Assembly (NCBI RefSeq): GCF_000802205.1
Contig: NZ_CP012850.1
Location: 868,001-932,000, forward strand
DNA length: 64,000 nt
Reading direction: 5' to 3'
DNA from: Candidatus Nitrosocosmicus oleophilus
GTDB lineage: Archaea > Thermoproteota > Nitrososphaeria > Nitrososphaerales > Nitrososphaeraceae
Part shown: positions 49,353-61,213 of the stretch, piece after piece
How positions within the stretch are numbered: position 1 is the first letter of the stretch
Layout of the letters: the number at the start of each line of letters is the position of its first letter
The notes under the pieces: generated by a model
Seen by the model: only the letters and a program-made list of their open reading frames with translations
What the model was told of the DNA's origin: nothing
The model's database searches: none
Translations under genes and position numbers: made by a program

Positions 49353-50279
49353 TTAAGGATTGTCATAGCATATTGCATATGTCTGTACAGTTAATGCTGA
49401 ATCCATACTTGAACTAGTGGTAATCGTGGTGGTAAATGTGCTAAGAGAATCCGGAATTGCAGAGTAAGAAATTACATTTCCATCAGAAATATCATAAATG
49501 GATCCTCCTCCCACGATCAAGTCACCATTGTGGCAAGATGCAGTAGAGGAATAAGGATTACCTCCAGTTTTATCGGTCGGCCCATGAATTATGTATATTT
49601 TTCCATCTAATGATAATGAACCAGTTGAAGATGATGAACCAGTTGAAGATGATGAACCAGTTGAAGATGATGAACCAGTTGAAGATGATGAACCCGAAAC
49701 CACTATATTATTTGTGGTATCTGTGGAACTACTTACATGATTAGCATCAGCTGAACAACCTACATTAGATGTGCCTTTGGGACCAGTTGGACAACCTACA
49801 CCTCCAATACTTTTCGCATTACCTTGACCTAGTTGGCCTCCAGCATTACCTTGACCTAGTTGGCCTCCAGCATTACCTTGACCTAGTTGGCCTCCAGCAT
49901 TACCTTGACCTAGTTGGCCTCCAGCATTACCTTGACCTAGTTGGTCTCCAGCATTACCTTGACCTAGTTGGCCTCCAGCATTACCTTGACCTAGTTGGCC
50001 TCCAGCATTACCTTGACCTAGTTGGCCTCCAGCATTACCTTGACCTAGTTGGCCTCCAGCATTACCTTGACCTAGTTGGCCTCCAGCATTACCTTGACCT
50101 AGTTGGCCTCCAGCATTACCTTGACCTAGTTGGCCTCCAGCATTCTCCATGTCTTGATTACCAAAGTGAAAATTACCTCTTTGTGCTAACGAAAAATTCA
50201 ACAGATCGGGGCTATAAGGAATGGTTAAAATTATGAAAATTAATCCACACATTAATAGTGTACTAATTAGAAAAGTCAT
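49353..50279 (-). CDS. Secreted Gly/Gln/Asn tandem-repeat protein
   Basis: 308-residue exported protein. A signal peptide or anchor covers about 1-32 (MTFLISTLLMCGLIFIILTI). Then twelve 9-residue units of the form GNAGGQLGQ (one has Asp for Gly) run from about 46 to 153. A short segment with two cysteines (VGCPTGPKG, VGCSADANH) follows, then four Ser-rich TGSSSS units (about 197-220). The C-terminal domain (about 225-308) has two more cysteines (TASCHNGD, YAICYDN) and looks folded. A fibrous or gel-like surface role is inference. Confidence 0.68.
   Translation of the reverse strand: MTFLISTLLMCGLIFIILTIPYSPDLLNFSLAQRGNFHFGNQDMENAGGQLGQGNAGGQLGQGNAGGQLGQGNAGGQLGQGNAGGQLGQGNAGGQLGQGNAGGQLGQGNAGDQLGQGNAGGQLGQGNAGGQLGQGNAGGQLGQGNAGGQLGQGNAKSIGGVGCPTGPKGTSNVGCSADANHVSSSTDTTNNIVVSGSSSSTGSSSSTGSSSSTGSSSSTGSLSLDGKIYIIHGPTDKTGGNPYSSTASCHNGDLIVGGGSIYDISDGNVISYSAIPDSLSTFTTTITTSSSMDSALTVQTYAICYDNP
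49618..49689 (-). repeat. Four exact copies of an 18-base repeat (Ser/Thr/Gly)
   Basis: The unit gaaccagttgaagatgat repeats four times without change from 49618 to 49689 inside the secreted repeat protein. Confidence 0.93.
49821..50144 (-). repeat. Twelve copies of a 27-base repeat (Gly-Gln-Asn units)
   Basis: A 27-base unit starting accttgacctagttggcc recurs every 27 bases from 49821 to 50144, twelve times, with one substitution (ggtctcc for ggcctcc, giving Asp). It encodes the GNAGGQLGQ units. Confidence 0.96.
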
Positions 50280-50623: not shown

Positions 50624-51592
50624 TCAATTATTTTTCAATCCTTGAGCAACTAATATCGAATAACATCCCAACCCACATTTTTCACATATTGGCTTCATTG
50701 CATTACTATCGGAGCTTCCAATACAACAAGGCTGTTTTGACTTTCCTTTATGATCTAACGATAATATTGCCCACGAAGGACAGTCCACCGGGGTAGTTTT
50801 AATTCCTCCCCAATTTCCTTTCATTAATTCTAGTTGCTTTTCTGTGTTCATGATAAAATCTGGATATTTAGTTCTTAATCTTTGAATATTATTAATTATT
50901 TCAGTTCTTGTATCACCGAATGGTAACCAAAGTGGATCATTGTCTGCAAAGGGAGTATGAAATTGAAATCCTATTTTATTTATCGTATCTTTCCATTCGT
51001 CAATTAGATCTTCTATGGTGGTATAATTTAGAGAATTTATGGTCATTGTGATCCAAATGTCCTTCCAAGCTGGTTTTCCGTTGCGAGCGGGCCCGGAGAT
51101 ATAGTCTAAAATATTCTTTTTGGTTTTCGCATAAGCGCCTTTTCCTCTAATGCTATCATGTACCTGTTCTGTACCATCAAGGGATACCCAGTAAAAGTAA
51201 AGCTTGTCAAATCTTACTAAAGGATAAGTACCGTTTGTTACTACACAAATTCTTCTAGGCATCTCATCACAAAAAACCTTTATAATATCTTTACGCATCA
51301 TAGGCTCGCCTCCAACGAGTGTAACTACATAAACATGATGTTTTTTAAAGGTCTGTTTTATTATTTCTTTCCAGTCGCCGGGACTCAACTCGTCTAGTTC
51401 ATTTCTCCTAGTTTTCCACCAATAACAATGGGAACAATGTAAATTACAGACGTTGATAATGTCTGCAGAACCATAGATAAATGGTTTAGATTTAAAAAAC
51501 TTTATAGACATATATTTACTTAGGATACTAAAAATTGTAGGAGCGTCTTTTATTATATCGGTTATACCCATACCGTATACAAGATCTACCAA
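50624..51592 (-). CDS. Radical SAM protein with C-terminal Cys-rich (SPASM-like) region
   Basis: S-adenosylmethionine radical enzyme. The cluster motif is CNLHCSHC (C49, C53, C56), followed by VTLVGGEPMMRKD (the GGEP motif) and CVVTNGTYPLV. The C-terminus has extra cysteines: DCPSWAILSLD, PCCIGSS, and CEKCGLGCYS at about 303-312, as in SPASM/twitch enzymes that hold additional iron-sulfur clusters. The start is TTG 51592 or ATG 51571. No peptide or substrate gene is adjacent, apart from small ORFs, so the reaction is unknown. It is also possible that it acts on a lipid (HpnH-like). Confidence 0.86.
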   Translation of the reverse strand: MVDLVYGMGITDIIKDAPTIFSILSKYMSIKFFKSKPFIYGSADIINVCNLHCSHCYWWKTRRNELDELSPGDWKEIIKQTFKKHHVYVVTLVGGEPMMRKDIIKVFCDEMPRRICVVTNGTYPLVRFDKLYFYWVSLDGTEQVHDSIRGKGAYAKTKKNILDYISGPARNGKPAWKDIWITMTINSLNYTTIEDLIDEWKDTINKIGFQFHTPFADNDPLWLPFGDTRTEIINNIQRLRTKYPDFIMNTEKQLELMKGNWGGIKTTPVDCPSWAILSLDHKGKSKQPCCIGSSDSNAMKPICEKCGLGCYSILVAQGLKNN

Positions 51593-52392: not shown

Positions 52393-52752
52393 ATGGTAAT
52401 AGAAAAAAGTTATAATAATAATCACCTTCCCATTATGTCATTAGATTCTCTTCGTAAAAGTACTATGATCAATCAAACTAAAAAAGAAAGTATGGTTGTC
52501 CTTGCTGAAGAACAATCGAATGAAGATATAGAAACATCTTTTCGCCAAAGATATTCTCAAGAATTAAGAACTAAGAAACAGCAAATATATGATATGGAAA
52601 GAGGTTTTAATGAGTTAGACGATGAAAGAAGGAGTGTTAGACAACAAATGATGCGAACTCCTGGACGACGAGGAGAGCTCATAAAAGAGGAAGAAATCTC
52701 TAAGGAATTTAGCAGGAGATTTTTTGAAACTCCAGAGATACGTGCAAATTAG
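52393..52752 (+). CDS. Charged, coiled-coil-like protein of unknown function (119 aa)
   Basis: 119-residue soluble protein with a disordered first third and a highly charged helical part: DIETSFRQRYSQELRTKKQQ (about 51-70), YDMERGFNELDDERRSVRQQ and ELIKEEEISKEFSRRFFE. High Arg, Lys and Glu content with no membrane segment suggests a coiled coil, perhaps a nucleic-acid-binding protein. The frame has in-frame ATG codons at residues 1, 15 and 25; the first is used by default. No family recognised. Confidence 0.6.
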   Translation: MVIEKSYNNNHLPIMSLDSLRKSTMINQTKKESMVVLAEEQSNEDIETSFRQRYSQELRTKKQQIYDMERGFNELDDERRSVRQQMMRTPGRRGELIKEEEISKEFSRRFFETPEIRAN

Positions 52753-53324
52753 ATCTCCTTCACTATCTCATAATATCATATTTTTATGTTGTTTTATCTT
52801 TAAAAGATATATACAATTTTTACCATTTTGTAGAATTATATTTCATGTCAGGAGTGTTTATTCGTATTTTGTTTACGATATCAACATGATCTAGGCCTGC
52901 TTATAACATAAATGGGTGAGTAGGTGTTCCTAAACATGTCTTGAAATTCTCATCAAATCTGTTTGCATCGCTTTTTATTTGAACTTGTGATTCATACCTT
53001 GCTAATGTAATAACTTTATAAAGTTTTGAATTCCATAAAGCATGTCCAAATAATATCTATTCAAAATAAAGGCAAAAGTTCAACTAAATATGCTCAAAAG
53101 TCAAAACGAAAGGATTTCGAGATAATTAACCTCTAATTATATTGATTACTCTTAACGTCTATTACCAAATCTTGAGAATTTCTGCATGTGATGTTGGTTA
53201 GATAGTGAAAGAAATCTTTGTCATGTTCTATTACAATTACTTTATGTCTGATTGTGCTTGATTATATATGCCATTTAGTATGGTCTTGATAATCCTTAAT
53301 ATTGTATCATGTATATCATAAGTT
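52753..53324. other. Intergenic region
   Basis: About 570 AT-rich bases upstream of a micro zinc-finger gene. No convincing ORF. Confidence 0.4.
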
Positions 53325-53462
53325 ATGAGTAACATGAATAACATTCAATTGTTAATGTGTAAGAATTGTACCCATTCAAAGAATGAGCATAGACAACAAC
53401 CCAGTGGTCCAAGATTTTATGATCATCGATGTTTATTTTGTAAGTGCCAGCAATTCACCTAA
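53325..53462 (+). CDS. Micro zinc-finger protein (45 aa), paralogue of the one at 61079
   Basis: 45-residue protein. It has MCKNCTHSKNEHR (C12, C15), then GPRFYDHRCLFCKCQQFT with C36, C39 and C41, so four or five Cys plus His residues form a probable zinc site (CxxC...CxxCxC). A second copy at 61079-61213 shares 31 of 42 aligned residues from IQLL onward by eye, while the DNA differs at many third-codon positions. This is strong evidence for translation. Both genes have ATAAGTT directly before the ATG. Function unknown. Confidence 0.75.
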   Translation: MSNMNNIQLLMCKNCTHSKNEHRQQPSGPRFYDHRCLFCKCQQFT

Positions 53463-53812
53463 ATTTGTTCTTTATTTCCTTACCGTCTTTCTCAATTAAT
53501 GACACGATTACATGCTTCTAGTTGAACAAAAGTACACTTCTATTGTATTTCTGATTCATACTACTTATTATTATTGCCATTTTCTTCGAAATTTTCTATA
53601 TGAAACGAGAATGGAGTTAGTTTGTTTATAAATTAAGAATCGAAAGATCATCTATATACCAAAATGTATATAGTCCATCTCAGGTCAAATACCGTTAAGC
53701 ATTGCTCTAAGTGTTCTATTTAAATACCTTGCCAATAACCATATTCAATGTTTATGCCAATTCAAAACGAGGTCATCTCAAAAATCAAATTCTGTGTTGA
53801 CGATTCATCCCA
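53463..53812. other. Intergenic region with a 22-codon upstream ORF
   Basis: About 350 bases. A 22-codon ORF from ATG 53748 (MFMPIQNEVISKIKF...) ends at TGA 53814-53816, overlapping the TTG start of the GH130 gene by two bases. It may be chance or a translational coupling device. Confidence 0.4.
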
Positions 53813-54790
53813 TTGACGCCCGAGAAACCCCAAATCCTAAAGAGATATTCAGATAATCCTATACTTATTCCCAATAAGAATAACTGGTGGGAGTCCGAAG
53901 CTGTTTTTAATTGTGCAATCTTAAATGACGGAAAAAAAATTCACATGCTTTATCGTGCGATCGGTGAATATGAGCACTACCTTTCAAGAATAGGATATGC
54001 ATCTAGTGAGGATGGTTATCTCTTTCGTAGGCGTGATGAAATAGCGTTTGACCCAACAGTGGACTACGAAAAATATGGTATCGAAGATCCACGATTGTCC
54101 GAAATCGACAGTCAAGTTTACATTACTTATGTAGTATTACCTGATCGTCCAAAAAAAGGTCCAATGGTATCAACCGCATTAGCAACTACTAAAGACTATT
54201 CCAAATTCGAAAGACTGGGTATCATTACAAATGAAGGGATGGATAACAAAGATGTGGTTCTTTTTCCAACCAAATTATCTTCCAAAAATACCGTCAGTAG
54301 TGAAAAGATGACGTATTTTTGCTTGCATAGACCAAGTTCATGGGTAGGTGCCGCATACGGAATTGATAAACCTAGCATATGGATTGGAGAGGGGACTACA
54401 TTGACAAGTTTTGAAACGCATACTTTGCTCATGAAACCGGAACAAAAATGGGAAGAATTAAAGATCGGTGCTGGCTCCCCGCCTATTAGAACAAAATACG
54501 GGTGGTTGGTGATATATCATGGTGTGAGCGCAGACAGAACCTATAGTGCTGGGGCTGCACTTTTGGATTTAGAAGATCCATATAAAATAATTTGTAGAAG
54601 CAAAGAACCCATTCTAGTACCTACTACACAATATGAGAAATATGGCGATGTAAACAATGTGGTTTTTCCTACAGGTGCTTGCATTATCAATGGAGAACTT
54701 TTTGTTTATTATGGTGGTGCGGACAAGGTATGTTGTGTTGCCACTGCCAAGTTAAGCGATCTTGTAGATTATATTTTTCAAAACAGTTAG
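53813..54790 (+). CDS. GH130 family glycoside phosphorylase/hydrolase
   Basis: 325-residue five-bladed propeller of family GH130, whose members phosphorolyse beta-mannosides such as mannosyl-GlcNAc or mannobiose. Seen are NPILIPNKNNWWESEAVFNC (15-34), MLYRAIGEYEHYLSRIGYAS, GIEDPRLSEID (about 91-101, with the usual Asp), and GAGSPPIRTKYGWLVIYHG near 223-241. The start is TTG 53813. No phosphate-binding check could be made by eye. The neighbouring GT4 and mannosylglycerate genes make mannose metabolism plausible. The substrate is unknown. Confidence 0.87.
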   Translation: MTPEKPQILKRYSDNPILIPNKNNWWESEAVFNCAILNDGKKIHMLYRAIGEYEHYLSRIGYASSEDGYLFRRRDEIAFDPTVDYEKYGIEDPRLSEIDSQVYITYVVLPDRPKKGPMVSTALATTKDYSKFERLGIITNEGMDNKDVVLFPTKLSSKNTVSSEKMTYFCLHRPSSWVGAAYGIDKPSIWIGEGTTLTSFETHTLLMKPEQKWEELKIGAGSPPIRTKYGWLVIYHGVSADRTYSAGAALLDLEDPYKIICRSKEPILVPTTQYEKYGDVNNVVFPTGACIINGELFVYYGGADKVCCVATAKLSDLVDYIFQNS

Positions 54791-55120
54791 TATGTCATGA
54801 GTTGTTAACTCAATGAATTAGTGAAAGATCAAGAAAAACTGTTTTCATAGTAGGAAACAATAAAATTGGAAAAACAATTTTACCGGCTATCATTTTATGT
54901 TAATTTTTGTTCTATAGGATGTAATTTAGAAGCTATTCAAATTGTTACCTTTTACATTAACTGTTAAATATTACGACAATGCAGTAAAAACAAATTCAGA
55001 AGAAGTCTTTTCAAATTCTTATCAGAGATTTAAACAATCAAATCTCTTCCTTAATCTATGAATCCTTTGATCATATAACATAGAAGTCGATCATGATAAA
55101 ATCACAACACTGAAATTCTG
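54791..55120. other. Intergenic region between convergent genes
   Basis: About 330 AT-rich bases with no convincing ORF or repeat. Confidence 0.4.
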
Positions 55121-56437
55121 TTATGGACTAACATAAGGGAATAGGTTGTTTTTGATTCCCTCGTTCTCGCCTAAAACCGTGGTATAAAGTGCATAATGCT
55201 GTAATGCAACATTGTCCCACGTTAATTCCTTATTGAATTCGTCAATTCTCTTAGTATATTGAGAATAATTCGCTCCTAGTTTCTTTATTGCTTTAGCAAA
55301 TTCGTTAGGTCTTCTTTTTACTACTATTCCAAGTCCTTTATTTGCAAATTCTCTGAAGAAGCCTAAATCAGTCGCTATAAATGGTAACCCATGAGCCAGT
55401 GCATCAAACATTACCCCTGAACCTGAAGTTACGGTATAGGGAAGGACGATTATGTCACATGCATAAAAAAGAATTGAAAGTTCTTTATCTGTTAAGAATC
55501 CACGATTCAAATTAATTATTTTACCATGATGTGTATTTTTACTTTCTGTGTTAAGAATTGCTCTATGGTTATCATGACCATCAATTGAAGACGGCTTTAT
55601 CGTATTGAATAAATTTTCCGACTGGTTAATTACCATCGCCCAATCATCTGGAATATCCAAATTATTTAATATGTCCCACCCTTTGGTATGTGTCATGAAT
55701 CCAAAGAATAAAGCTATTTTACGATTTATTGGTAAGGTGTATACTTCCCTTGCCTCTTTTTTCTTTATAGGCATATTAAAATTTGGTTCTGCACCATGAT
55801 ATATGACAGTAAAATTTTTCAATGATTTTTCATCATTTTCAGCTATTAATTTGGCTAAATAATTTGAAAAAACAATACTGGCCTGGCTCATTTGCATTTT
55901 TTGTTTATTTGCGGTATTAAAAGATCGGTAGTTTATGAAGCGTTTCCAGTAGGCTATTATTTGCTTGCTCAGATTAATCGGAAAAGTAATCATGTCTTTA
56001 TCCATAATATTTGGGTGTTTTGACAGACCCATCCATTGTCGTAGTGGATATGCAGAATGAAATGTAGTGATTATGGGTATTTTACATTCTTTATAAAATT
56101 CGTCTATGTTCGTACTTAATTTGTTTGGATTGATGACGTCCATCTTAAGTCCATAAAGTCCATGTTCTAATTGGATGTGGACAAGATCAGGTACATACTC
56201 ATCAATCACATCTAGGATTACTTTTGAATTATTGCCATTTTCAGGATCAATACCCCCATAATCTCCTTTTCCCTTCTCGTTGCATAAAACAGAAACTTTA
56301 ATACCCGATCTTTTCAATCCCTCTGTGAGATTTTTTGCATACCTACCTACGCCTCCGGGAATGGGAGGATATTCGGTGGAAACCATTAGAATTTTTAACG
56401 AAAATTTATCATATTTATCTAACTTATAAGACATCAT
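55121..56437 (-). CDS. GT4 family glycosyltransferase
   Basis: 438-residue GT-B glycosyltransferase. The N-terminal domain opens with LKILMVSTEYPPIPGGVGRY (14-33), a hallmark of GT4, then VHIQLEHGLYG. The C-terminal domain carries the donor site: ALFFGFMTHTKGWDIL, then CDIIVLPYTVTSGSGVMFDA and HGLPFIATDLGFFREF, which includes the nucleotide-sugar-binding Glu region. Probably adds a sugar (mannose-like) to a lipid or glycan at the cytoplasmic face. It is transcribed after the uspA gene on the same strand with 102 bases between. Confidence 0.88.
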   Translation of the reverse strand: MMSYKLDKYDKFSLKILMVSTEYPPIPGGVGRYAKNLTEGLKRSGIKVSVLCNEKGKGDYGGIDPENGNNSKVILDVIDEYVPDLVHIQLEHGLYGLKMDVINPNKLSTNIDEFYKECKIPIITTFHSAYPLRQWMGLSKHPNIMDKDMITFPINLSKQIIAYWKRFINYRSFNTANKQKMQMSQASIVFSNYLAKLIAENDEKSLKNFTVIYHGAEPNFNMPIKKKEAREVYTLPINRKIALFFGFMTHTKGWDILNNLDIPDDWAMVINQSENLFNTIKPSSIDGHDNHRAILNTESKNTHHGKIINLNRGFLTDKELSILFYACDIIVLPYTVTSGSGVMFDALAHGLPFIATDLGFFREFANKGLGIVVKRRPNEFAKAIKKLGANYSQYTKRIDEFNKELTWDNVALQHYALYTTVLGENEGIKNNLFPYVSP

Positions 56438-56539
56438 AATAATAAATTATATTATACAACAAGACATATAAGCAGCTGTAATAACGCTACCAATTCATCG
56501 ATATTTACACATTTTTTACCGGTATTTACTATATTTTGG

Positions 56540-57010
56540 TTATCTTACCAAAACTACTGGACACGTTGCAACTTCTGAAATCCATCTAGAAATACTTCCT
56601 ATACCTTTTCTATCATGTCTTTTCTTTAATGATCCACTACTACCCATTATTATCATGCTTGTATTCTCTTCCTTAGATACGGTAAGGATCTCATCTGCAG
56701 GATGACCAACCCGAATTTTTGACTTAGCTGCAACACCGTCACGGATTAATCTATCTACCTCCTTTCCAACCATTATCTGGGCTCCATCTCTAATTGTCTT
56801 TTCAAAATAGTGCCTAGCTTTGTCAAGATCATCCATATTTGAAATAAATTTTGCAATTTCCTTGGGATAGAAACTTGTATCATCAATAACATACAAAACG
56901 ATTATCGTAGAACTCTGGTTTGTTGCAAGTTCTTTTGCTTTCTCTAAGGCCTTTACTGACAGCTCAGTCGCATCAAATGGAACCAAAATATTGGATTTAT
57001 TGTTATTCAT
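56540..57010 (-). CDS. Universal stress protein (UspA family)
   Basis: 156-residue single-domain USP. The first strand NILVPFDATELSVKALEKA (about 7-25) has the conserved Asp, and the C-terminal ATP-binding motif is visible as MGSSGSLKKRHDRKGIGSIS (about 122-141), the GxxGx9-10G(S/T) pattern, ending in ATCPVVLVR. It therefore belongs to the ATP-binding class. Such proteins accumulate under stress; no specific partner is seen. It may be co-transcribed with the GT4 gene. Confidence 0.9.
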   Translation of the reverse strand: MNNNKSNILVPFDATELSVKALEKAKELATNQSSTIIVLYVIDDTSFYPKEIAKFISNMDDLDKARHYFEKTIRDGAQIMVGKEVDRLIRDGVAAKSKIRVGHPADEILTVSKEENTSMIIMGSSGSLKKRHDRKGIGSISRWISEVATCPVVLVR

Positions 57011-57510
57011 TCATTATTACATAATTCTTTGAATATATAGACATCACCTTTTGCTATATGCTCTTATTTTCTCATGTCACCGACTAGATTAAAGACATTT
57101 TAAACTCAATAACACTAATTTTGTTTTCTGTATGGTGGCGTACATTCTATCATATACATTGCCTAGTTGATTACAAAGTCTATTTCATACATCCAGTTCG
57201 TCGTTTTGATTGTTGGTCTATCAATATTATGGTATATAGAATAGGAATAAGAAAATCCAACTTATTTCCGACACTAGAATGTTTAATGGAAAGAAATGGG
57301 ATGGATTTAACTTTGTTAATAAACTTAAATTCCTGGTTAGTAAATTGGACTAATTTCAACAAAGGAAGGCATATGGATCCTGATATATTAGTGATCTAAT
57401 ATATGTAATAGCCCAAAAAATACTATATTTTTTCTATACGAGCGATCACAAGGGATTGAGTGCGGAATCCCCTCGATATACTTGATAGGAATAAAGTATA
57501 TATCTAACAT
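57011..57510. other. Intergenic region
   Basis: About 500 bases. A TTG-started 92-codon frame at 57121-57399 has an unlikely Trp/His/Ile-rich composition and is not called. Confidence 0.4.
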
Positions 57511-57627
57511 ATGAAAGGTACAGGAAATTTTAGTGGAAGAATGATGTCTATGGTTTATCTACGTAAAGTAATAGCCGAAAAGAAGCTGGCAAATAAAGAT
57601 GAACTGAGTTTGAAAACGTCTGTTTGA
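57511..57627 (+). CDS. Possible small protein (38 aa)
   Basis: ORF of 38 codons opening MKGTGNFSGRMMSMVYLRKV and ending ELSLKTSV. It is basic with a helical centre. An AT-rich GTATATATC (57495-57503) lies shortly before the ATG. The composition looks coding but the length makes it uncertain. No homologue is known to me. Confidence 0.35.
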   Translation: MKGTGNFSGRMMSMVYLRKVIAEKKLANKDELSLKTSV

Positions 57628-57981
57628 AGGAAAACACTACTGACAACTATCAATACAAAAAAAAAACAAGTCCTACCATCATATTGGGACATTTATTGTT
57701 CATTTCAATTCTTAAAACTTGATATAGATTTCGTTAGGTTAAATGTTTATCCACTCGTTAGAAGTCTTGAAAAATGATTTAGGGAATTGTCTTTGATTTT
57801 CCCCTCTAGTCGTGAATTTAATAATTTTGGAACAATTACAAGTATATTTGAAGACCATCTTTCCAATGGCTGTATTCATGTTAATGTAAATTAATAAAGG
57901 ATTGAAGTTTTAAACCAGGTAAAAAACAAACTTATATTCAATAGATGTTTTAAGAAAATAATAGAATGAAGAAAATAACTT
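57628..57981. other. Intergenic region
   Basis: About 350 AT-rich bases with no convincing ORF. Confidence 0.4.
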
Positions 57982-58374
57982 ATGACATCGAGCGTCAATA
58001 ATACAATGCCGAATAAACAAGTTAAACATGATAAACAAGAAAAGCCATCAGCTAAAATAGAAATATTAAAAAAAGCAAAGAAAAAAGTATCTGATGTATC
58101 ACAATGTGATAATCTATCTATCGCTGAAATAGATGCGCTTCACTATCATTATAGCAAATTATCCCCTTTATTTAAGAATGCGCCTCATCCCACGTTCTTG
58201 GTTTTGAGGATCTTAGAACGTTATATCCAAATAGATAATATTGTTATTGGAGATGTAATAAACGAAATCAAACAAAGAGGGCTCGATGTCTCTCATACTG
58301 ATGCACAAGTAGATGCATTAGTGAATGAGCTAGCATTAAATAATAAAAAATATAAAGCAAAATCCAGTGATTAA
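57982..58374 (+). CDS. Hypothetical protein, possible winged-helix fold (130 aa)
   Basis: 130-residue soluble protein with a Lys-rich disordered N-terminus (about 1-40). The region at about 45-120 is helical: NLSIAEIDALHYHYSKLSPL, FLVLRILERYIQIDN, then IGDVINEIKQRGLDVSHTDA and QVDALVNELALNNKKY. The last two helices and short wing resemble a small helix-turn-helix, so a DNA-binding role is possible but unproven. The start is the ATG at 57982. It lies in a gene-poor region. Confidence 0.55.
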   Translation: MTSSVNNTMPNKQVKHDKQEKPSAKIEILKKAKKKVSDVSQCDNLSIAEIDALHYHYSKLSPLFKNAPHPTFLVLRILERYIQIDNIVIGDVINEIKQRGLDVSHTDAQVDALVNELALNNKKYKAKSSD

Positions 58375-58854
58375 GGCTTAAAAAGTATATCTGTGTTTAT
58401 TGACACTGGGAAACATCAATACCGTTATTGACAATATTTCTACTATTAGGTACTTATACTGAAATTAGATATTCTGTATTAATTAGTAGTATTTTGAGAT
58501 ATAAAATAAATAACTGTAATAGGATTAGGAAAGTCAATTTTACCTATGATAATTTGTAAAAAAGATCTTACAATTGCTAGAAGATCGAATGGCGTTTGTG
58601 AATGTCACGTACTGCTGGATGGATGTTGAATTCGTTGTTTAAATCCGAATTTTTCGACCTGAATGAGTATATGTATCCTATTTAAATGAAATAAAAAATG
58701 AGGTTCATAGTACAAATTCGAAATGGCGTACTAATCTATTGTTTGTTTAAGTTTGTTAATAAAATATTTTAGCACTTGTATTCTTCCTTGTTATTTCCTA
58801 TTTTTTCCGAGATAAAAAAACATGATTAAGATAGATCAGTTGAATGTTCTGAAT
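58375..58854. other. Intergenic region between convergent genes
   Basis: About 480 AT-rich bases with no convincing ORF or repeat. Confidence 0.4.
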
Positions 58855-59028
58855 CTATGACAGGTCTACATAGTCCTCAAGCGCATAATTATTCAAATGC
58901 CCTTTAGAGCATTTGAATGTTGAATTTGGATTCTTATCAGATTCATTTCTAAATTCAGTCATGTTGTCTGTATATACTCCACTAAATATTATACCACAAG
59001 TTTTACATTTTAACATAAGCATAGGCAT
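58855..59028 (-). CDS. Small zinc-ribbon-like protein (57 aa)
   Basis: 57-residue protein opening MPMLMLKCKTCGIIFSGVYT and ending ALEDYVDLS. The ligand pattern is CKTC (C8, C11) and CSKGH (C40 and H44), a plausible Cys3His zinc site with about 28 residues between halves. The spacing FKCSKGHLNNY is typical of small archaeal zinc ribbons. It is too short for usual gene finders but has a coherent composition. It lies in an otherwise gene-poor 3-kb stretch; function unknown. Confidence 0.6.
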   Translation of the reverse strand: MPMLMLKCKTCGIIFSGVYTDNMTEFRNESDKNPNSTFKCSKGHLNNYALEDYVDLS

Positions 59029-61078
59029 CTTTATTCCTTCATCCTCGACGTTCTCAATACGTTGAACTTGTTATTATCCTTACATTAATCTGGAAATCAA
59101 TAGTCAAAATCAAAATGGTTATTTGACAAGATAAGTTACTATTCAAGTATAAACTTAAATGTTTATACTAATATTTACTTCAATTTGGATTTCTAATTTC
59201 TTTTTTCTTACTCCATGAAAATCATATTTTTGTACTTATTTAGGGGAAAAATATCTATTGGTTGATTTAAAAGATAAATCGTAATTTACATCCTTCATGA
59301 CAGAATACCCAGTGTCTCAAACTTGTAGGAGTACAAGATCTTGATATATATATGCATAGTATACTCAATGATTAAAAATATTTTTTCTTGTCATGACTTA
59401 AATGATTTATTAATGTTAGTAATTCTGCATTTCAACAGAAACAGACCTTCTATACAATCTTTGGATGATTCTACTTATTAGTTTCATACAGATGGACAAG
59501 AGTAGTCCAGTGCCATTATGTGCACTAATTATTAGACAGGGTAATGACCTGACATTGCATTTAACGCCTATTGAAAAAAACCATTAGTATGTCACTGATT
59601 GGGTTAACTTAAAATGTTTCCAGTGGGAATGGATTCACGACAAAAGTAAGCAAATCCATCTACAAGAGATCTTATTCTATGGTTTAAATCGAGTTATCTA
59701 ATATGCACGCGAATATCTCCAACTGCCGTTATGAAATGTCTCAATGAATCTGATCCCTTCAGGATTATTTATTATCCTGGTGTTGCCATTCTTAGGGTTA
59801 TTAAGCTGATTTCTCCTATTAATGACCTCAATAAGTTTTCTCATATTTATATATACATTTCCTCATATAAGAACGTATAAAACATTGATAACAAATCAAA
59901 TCTTTGGAGTAGTAAAGGAGGTCTGACTAATCATGCATGCTTGTACCCACATAAAGTAAAACTTCACTTCTTAATTTGAATTATCATCTCACTCTGACTT
60001 GTTTACCACGCTAAATATTGCACTCGTAATTAGATTCGCCACTACATTTCCAAAAGGTGCATTAAATGATCCAGTTCACACTAATGTAAGTAATCTATCA
60101 GCATTTCTCTTTTATTGTCCTTGATAATTACAAATTATTCTACAATCTCATTGAAAATTCTTCATTATGGTACTAATTATCATTACTCCTTTGTTTGCGA
60201 GCATATTTTTATTCCATTTGATAAAGTATTGATTTGTGTTCCTTAATGGTTTGACAAAAGAGTCTTTAATCTTCTTTATAGATCTAAAACACTGTTGTTA
60301 TATCCTCATGCTTTCTTTGATTCAGGGGTTAGAAAGGTCCAGCTTATCTTTGTTTAATTTCAATTAGTATTATTCTTCTTTTGAGTATTTTCATTTTGGA
60401 AATACATGTGGTTATTACCTTTAGTACGCTTTGGCACGTTTGCAATTGTTGCTTCATCATCATTCTTGCTATATGACATCAATTACTATTTGGATTCATC
60501 TTATATAAGATTATATTAGGTTCTAGTTTGTCTGAGGAAACCGTAATTTTGAAAGGTAATCTAAAGTAATATCCTACAATCGATTGGCAATAAAATTTTT
60601 CAATAAATTCAAATGTTGACCTAATCTCTCTTGGACCTTTAGTTATTTTCTAAAGACAACTTATTTTAGGGTTGATTGACCTATAATTTAACCGACTGAT
60701 GATGTTTTTCTGGAATTAGATTTTTTTCCAGTGTAGGAAGCAAATGTGGTTTGCAAATAAAGTCTCCCTATGAAATTGTTCTCAATCCTCAGTCCAGAAA
60801 ATCCTAAAATCACTCAATTATTGTGGGTTGGTCGATAATCAACTGAATTTCTTTTCATATTCTCGTAGACTAGATTCTACTGCATAGTCTACATAATTGT
60901 CCATACCTTCTTGACGTATGTTTGAATCATAACTTGTCACCTTTGTGGGAAAACTTTAAGGCATTCTGAAGGGACCTTTTCAAATTCTAGCGAATTTACT
61001 GTCTTATCCATAGCCAGAAATTACTATTTTCTAGTAATTTTCCAACCATTAATATATTTGTAGGGCAAATAATAAGTT
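59029..61078. other. Gene-poor region of about 2 kb
   Basis: No ORF of 60 codons or more lies wholly inside on either strand. A 31-codon frame at 59492-59587 (MDKSSPVPLCALI...) is too short to judge. No tRNA, repeat array or mobile-element gene was recognised. It may hold untranslated RNAs or decayed genes. Confidence 0.5.
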
Positions 61079-61213
61079 ATGAATGATGCTAGTATTCAAT
61101 TATTAATCTGTAAAAATTGTACACATTCAAAGAAAGAGCACAGGAATGAACCTAATGGTCCAAAATTTTATGATCATAGGTGTCTTTTATGTAAATGCCA
61201 ACAATTTACATGA
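61079..61213 (+). CDS. Micro zinc-finger protein (44 aa), paralogue of the one at 53325
   Basis: 44-residue protein. ICKNCTHSKKEHR (C11, C14) is followed by GPKFYDHRCLLCKCQQFT with C35, C38 and C40, matching the 53325 protein nearly residue for residue after the first six. Conservation of protein sequence while codons vary shows that both are translated and under selection. The ATG is preceded by ATAAGTT as in the other copy. The flanking DNA is not similar, so any duplication was not recent. Probable zinc binding; function unknown. Confidence 0.75.
   Translation: MNDASIQLLICKNCTHSKKEHRNEPNGPKFYDHRCLLCKCQQFT

Follow-up and report, generated by a model that had tools for sequence, protein, structure and literature searches.

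Whether two very short, look-alike reading frames in the chromosome of Candidatus Nitrosocosmicus oleophilus are genuine genes and, if so, what family they represent and what their products might do, is the question raised by the locus analyzed here. The window, a stretch of 64,000 nucleotides, corresponds to positions 868001–932000 of a closed 3.43 Mb genome. Microprotein A (45 aa) is encoded at 53325..53462 and microprotein B (44 aa) at 61079..61213, both on the forward strand and separated by approximately 7.6–7.8 kb, so that the positions and the spacing of about 7.6 kb given by the initial annotation are correct. The product of A follows the pattern C-x2-C-x-H-x4-H-x13-C-x2-C-x-C-x2-F, and the Cys/His pairs read CKNCT and CLFCK in A, and CKNCT and CLLCK in B, with five Cys and three His held within 44 aa. 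When the whole 3.43 Mb genome is searched with A, B is recovered at an E-value of 5.7e-22 and 77% identity, which bears out the proposed paralogy. The description of both frames as below the usual gene-finding size was, however, overstated, since common gene finders apply a minimum open reading frame of 90 nt and A and B measure 135–138 nt.

The pattern of change between the two copies is that of coding sequence under constraint. In a sliding comparison, A and B show 75–90% identity across most of the reading frame, weaker similarity up to about 60 nt upstream and background levels downstream, the resemblance ending at the stop codon. Over a core of 38 codons the two differ at 22 nucleotides, of which 16 occupy third positions; 13 of these changes are synonymous and nine nonsynonymous (dS 1.76, dN 0.101, ratio 0.058). 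The difference between the copies, first noticed as shared peptide blocks with differing codons, is mostly synonymous. The initial annotation had named a lack of homologues in any other genome and a dN/dS near 1 between the copies as grounds for abandoning the idea; homologues do exist elsewhere, and the ratio lies far below 1. Most orthologue and paralogue pairs give values of 0.02–0.06, with dS saturated in several of the orthologue comparisons, and values near 0.19 are seen in two comparisons, one involving only four differences and the other a different genus. Purifying selection on A and B is strong, and both are real genes under selection. A segmental duplication of the region was considered and rejected, homology being absent outside the reading frame and the 60 nt or so upstream of it; A and B are the result of an old gene duplication of which the gene and its promoter alone are now recognizable.

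Orthologues of A in preserved synteny are found in three further genomes (G002, G012, and G005) and orthologues of B in four (G002, G005, G007, and G012). In G002 and G012 both genes are syntenic, flanked by the same radical SAM, GH130, glycosyltransferase, universal stress, and PsbP-like genes. The B genes cluster in a nucleotide tree with support 0.96 and the A genes, including copy G004a, with support 0.95, and this separation into two groups indicates that the duplication is older than those species. Decayed copies, carrying internal stops or truncations, are present in G001, G004, G006, and G014; copy number therefore turns over, and the decay of several Nitrosocosmicus copies implies that individual copies are dispensable. 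The A orthologue of G012 has its second His replaced by Ala; in that assembly the glycosyltransferase gene, too, is broken into two parts. The close, A/B-type family occurs in 11 of the 15 Ca. Nitrosocosmicus genomes and in one genome of another genus in the same family, and most of the relatives of the loci that bear a name are metagenome-assembled genomes and isolates of Ca. Nitrosocosmicus.

Iterated profiles extend this group to a broader family defined by C-x2-C-x-H-x4-H-xn-C-x2-4-C-x-C-x2-[FY]. Seven residues (C11, C14, H16, H21, C35, C38, and C40 in B numbering) are invariant in 37 diverse members with a mean column identity of 34%, and the A/B type adds a near-invariant Asp-His before the third Cys. 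At E ≤ 1e-4 the final profile matches 209 of 330 Nitrososphaeria genomes (155 of the 220 of high quality), with the proviso that, the profiles being iterated, last-round E-values depend in part on members taken in earlier. Profile A1, from the first round, was enough on its own to reach other genera of the taxonomic family, and profile A4 matched Nitrosopumilaceae at 1e-6 to 1e-3; both of these early broad profiles under-counted the family because they included few or no Nitrosopumilaceae members yet. Nearly every listed genome of the Nitrosopumilaceae, the marine relatives, carries a single copy, of roughly 40–60 residues, and most genomes of group g4, probably Nitrososphaera, carry one or two. 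The source genome holds seven copies (A, B, and those at genome positions 772319, 785023, 786411, 2557962, and 3303863) and a sister genome of the soil genus Nitrosocosmicus up to ten. Among the genomes listed, the broader family occurs in the two families that hold ammonia oxidizers, and the final profile at the same threshold finds it in none of the listed genomes of families f4 and f12. The suggestion of a widespread archaeal family thus stands for the broader C-C-H-H-C-C-C family, which is class-wide, but not for the A/B subfamily, which is centred on Nitrosocosmicus. A and B fall short of the cut-off of every Pfam and NCBIfam model, and at E 0.1 no such model picks up more than one of 17 wider members. 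A 190-aa Nitrosopumilaceae protein, possibly viral (L108, G051:C112:11448-11546), carries C-x-C-G-H-x4-H...C-x-C-x2-F inside a longer chain. As judged by these profiles, A and B are part of an expansion, specific to their lineage, within a family spread over the ammonia-oxidizing archaea. An uncurated microprotein kept by nearly every listed Nitrosopumilaceae genome is a candidate lineage-signature gene of globally important nitrifiers, and one easily lost in annotation; the Nitrosocosmicus expansion, in turn, supplies a natural set of paralogues on which the role of such microproteins can be tested.

The upstream regions point to how these genes may be expressed. A TATA-like TTAATA box lies at 53296..53301 (+), 29 nt before the start of A and within a segment, TTAATATTGTATCATGTA (53296-53313), common to most paralogues; the corresponding box of B, at 61049..61054 (+), lies 30 nt before its start. 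In most paralogues TTAATA is closely followed by GTATCATGTA, a part that B has not kept. Eleven A/B-type upstream regions were compared, those of A and B and nine taken from other genomes, and in all of them TTAATA begins 28, 29, or 30 nt ahead of the start codon. At this spacing an archaeal TATA box directs initiation to the start codon itself or to a position just ahead of it, and the resulting mRNA is leaderless. Leaderless transcripts are therefore predicted here, and A and B are probably expressed from promoters of their own. Several copies use GTG as start codon, and the promoter alignment helps to fix the start. The ATAAGTT heptamer emphasized by the initial annotation does precede both starts, but as a common signal it was rejected: its 23 occurrences in the window match the 22.6 expected by chance, and the orthologues have other sequence in its place.

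The invariance of the Cys/His set across diverse members suggests that A, B, and the family at large likely bind zinc. The seven invariant ligands, together with the near-invariant Asp-His of the A/B type, would hold one zinc ion between the two C-x2-C pairs, and a second might be held by the two His and the last Cys. Such sites would fix a small fold devoid of a hydrophobic core, the rigid surface of which could work as an adaptor or regulator binding a nucleic acid or protein partner, and the Nitrosocosmicus copies, as they diverged, would probably have come to regulate different partners or to dock to them. AlphaFold2 models from two runs are not confident (pLDDT 55 and 58), and the model hence supports neither the fold nor the metal stoichiometry. 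Precedents for such a role come from haloarchaea, where Cys and His mutants of the zinc-finger protein Brz strongly impair bop transcription (PMC2253796) and 12 of 16 deletions of Haloferax zinc-finger micro-proteins yield a phenotype (PMC6562870). By analogy, a small adaptor or regulator role is the most likely one for A and B, and the reading that we favor, with moderate confidence, is that of functional, single-domain zinc-binding microproteins, translated from probably leaderless mRNAs, that belong to an expanded family and act as adaptors or regulators through a zinc-fixed fold.

The same residues could instead serve metal storage, trafficking, or sensing, with metallothionein-like or chaperone peptides buffering zinc or copper, a high demand for copper being typical of ammonia oxidizers. 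The density of five Cys and three His per 44 aa would suit such peptides, as would the confinement of the broad family to two ammonia-oxidizer families among the genomes listed, but the fixed ligand spacing and the conserved non-ligand flanks (GPxFYDHRCL, QF) denote a folded domain unlike metallothionein, and conserved linkage to metal transporters was not noticed in the loci read; we regard this explanation as unlikely. More improbable still is an origin as remnants of viral or selfish small genes, in which phage-type CxxCxH..H..CxxCxC proteins would have been captured and spread in an expanding genome. A phage profile of unknown function, PHROG 1311, matches seven of 17 members (best E 1.4e-4), the Nitrosocosmicus copies are born and decay, and the 190-aa protein mentioned above embeds the motif in a longer chain, yet the stable single copy with recurring flanks over the Nitrosopumilaceae, the synteny of A and B in sister species, and the strong purifying selection all speak against it. 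A tblastn search of phage records returned no convincing match. The sole match among viral contigs (L095) was discarded as a chance frame.

The gene neighborhoods of the family hold recurrent companions. Between A and B, at 58855..59028 (-), lies a gene missed by the initial annotation for a second zinc-ribbon microprotein of 57 aa, microZ (MPMLMLKCKTCG..C-x3-H...DLS), which is present in 48 of 70 Nitrososphaeraceae genomes and for which no Pfam or NCBIfam match above cut-off was found. In the window, at two loci of G003, and in G004 it lies about 1.0–2.1 kb from a family member; in G006 a decayed copy is 0.5 kb away, in the other-genus genome G339 a member is 0.6 kb away, and in two g4 genomes (G178 and G260) the distance to a member is about 0.5–1.8 kb. 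This closeness recurs at several non-orthologous loci, other genera included. The second companion is a radical SAM protein of unclear family, encoded at 50624..51592 (-), of which sister species have up to four copies, the additional ones sitting close to family members at several loci and often 2–6 kb from a family microprotein. In three closed genomes, microZ is within 5 kb of four of the 13 family copies, and the radical SAM gene likewise of four of 13, values reached in none of 20,000 random placements in either case; these tests ignore the common ancestry of blocks and show linkage, not independent events. A further neighbor of A is a conserved 119-aa protein without family (52393..52752, +). 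The window also encodes a 308-aa secreted-type protein (49353-50279, -), in which a GNAGGQLGQ repeat recurs about a dozen times ahead of an SSSTGS repeat. In G003 and G004, the interval from microZ to the A/B-type gene holds the gene for a conserved 116-aa protein lacking a Pfam match (L160:11723-12073, L125:9632-9982, and L128:9310-9660), which was not seen in the window. In the Nitrosopumilaceae, the family gene often follows an alcohol-dehydrogenase-like gene, named as such by eye, and precedes the gene for a 77-aa helical protein, which is directly 3' of the single-copy member in most of the genomes read (e.g., L101:1681-1917 and L103:1698-1931). Since the neighborhood differs between Nitrosocosmicus and the Nitrosopumilaceae, context does not single out one pathway. 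A broader proposal, rather doubtful in our estimation, would make the family a near-universal conserved microprotein of ammonia-oxidizing archaea with a minimal seven-ligand, possibly two-zinc fold, serving a lineage-specific process, with up to ten paralogues in Nitrosocosmicus and microZ as a functional partner.

The linkage to the radical SAM gene, which includes non-orthologous loci, would also be expected if the microproteins were RiPP precursors or other substrates modified by the enzyme encoded nearby. This weak rival, the most improbable of those that treat A and B as proteins, faces several difficulties: conservation falls on C-x2-C pairs and His, as in zinc sites; the leader and variable core beside a dedicated maturase that mark RiPP precursors are not found in A or B, in which conservation reaches the C-terminus with fixed Cys/His spacing; neighborhoods are different in the Nitrosopumilaceae, and for some copies even the nearest copy of this radical SAM gene is distant; the best NCBIfam score of the enzyme, 66 bits, falls short of the cut-off of 306; and the linkage may stem from an old block duplication, microZ being equally well linked. 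Finally, that A and B are a non-coding element or chance reading frames, for which their small size alone would count, is refuted by the codon pattern (dN/dS 0.06 with third-position bias); homologues throughout a class speak against it too, as does an Rfam search with zero matches, on which an RNA element is rejected.

Set against known systems, the reading of A and B as zinc-binding adaptors or regulators finds partial counterparts in several short Cys-rich proteins. Pfam NinD (PF17466), a short Cys-rich phage protein, overlaps weakly with B (15.8 bits against a cut-off of 35), and PHROG 1311, a weak relative, is similar in size (about 50 aa), with a profile that overlaps the whole motif; it matches seven of 17 members but is marginal for A (0.014) and B (0.15). 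The zinc site of the mitochondrial ribosomal protein bL32m, CPECGHLKQKH, resembles CxxCGHLKxxH, although bL32m is part of a ribosome and aligns over the first 17 residues or so only, at E 0.1 or worse. The best PDB profile match, the Churchill protein (2jox), shares C-x2-C-x-H-x4-H followed by C-x2-C, with the first four ligands equally spaced, but is a longer eukaryotic protein with further zinc sites, and at E 0.076–0.089 the similarity is not significant and homology is not claimed. A parallel in kind is offered by the CPxCG-related zinc-finger proteins of archaea, such as Halobacterium Brz and those of Haloferax, which, like A and B, are single-domain, mostly under 70–100 aa, endowed with paired Cys/His, and in many cases overlooked in annotation. 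That class is defined by fewer than 100 residues, two Cys/His patterns 7–40 residues apart, and at least one pattern of the CPxCG, CPxCx, or CxxCG type (PMC2253796). With 45 and 44 aa, and with C11-x2-C14 and C35-x2-C38 of B 20 residues apart, A and B agree with the first two points, but they carry C-x2-C-x-H-x4-H and C-x2-C-x-C, with seven invariant ligands, in place of any CPxCG, CPxC, or CxxCG, and are therefore not filed in that class. CxxCG does occur in some broader members (CxxCGH; e.g., CRNCG and CSNCG) and in microZ (CKTCG), and A and B may nonetheless work in the manner of the CPxCG class. Detailed function aside, their sequences place them in a new, lineage-wide and uncurated family of a known kind, with a ligand pattern that stands apart sufficiently for a new profile family to be built on it.
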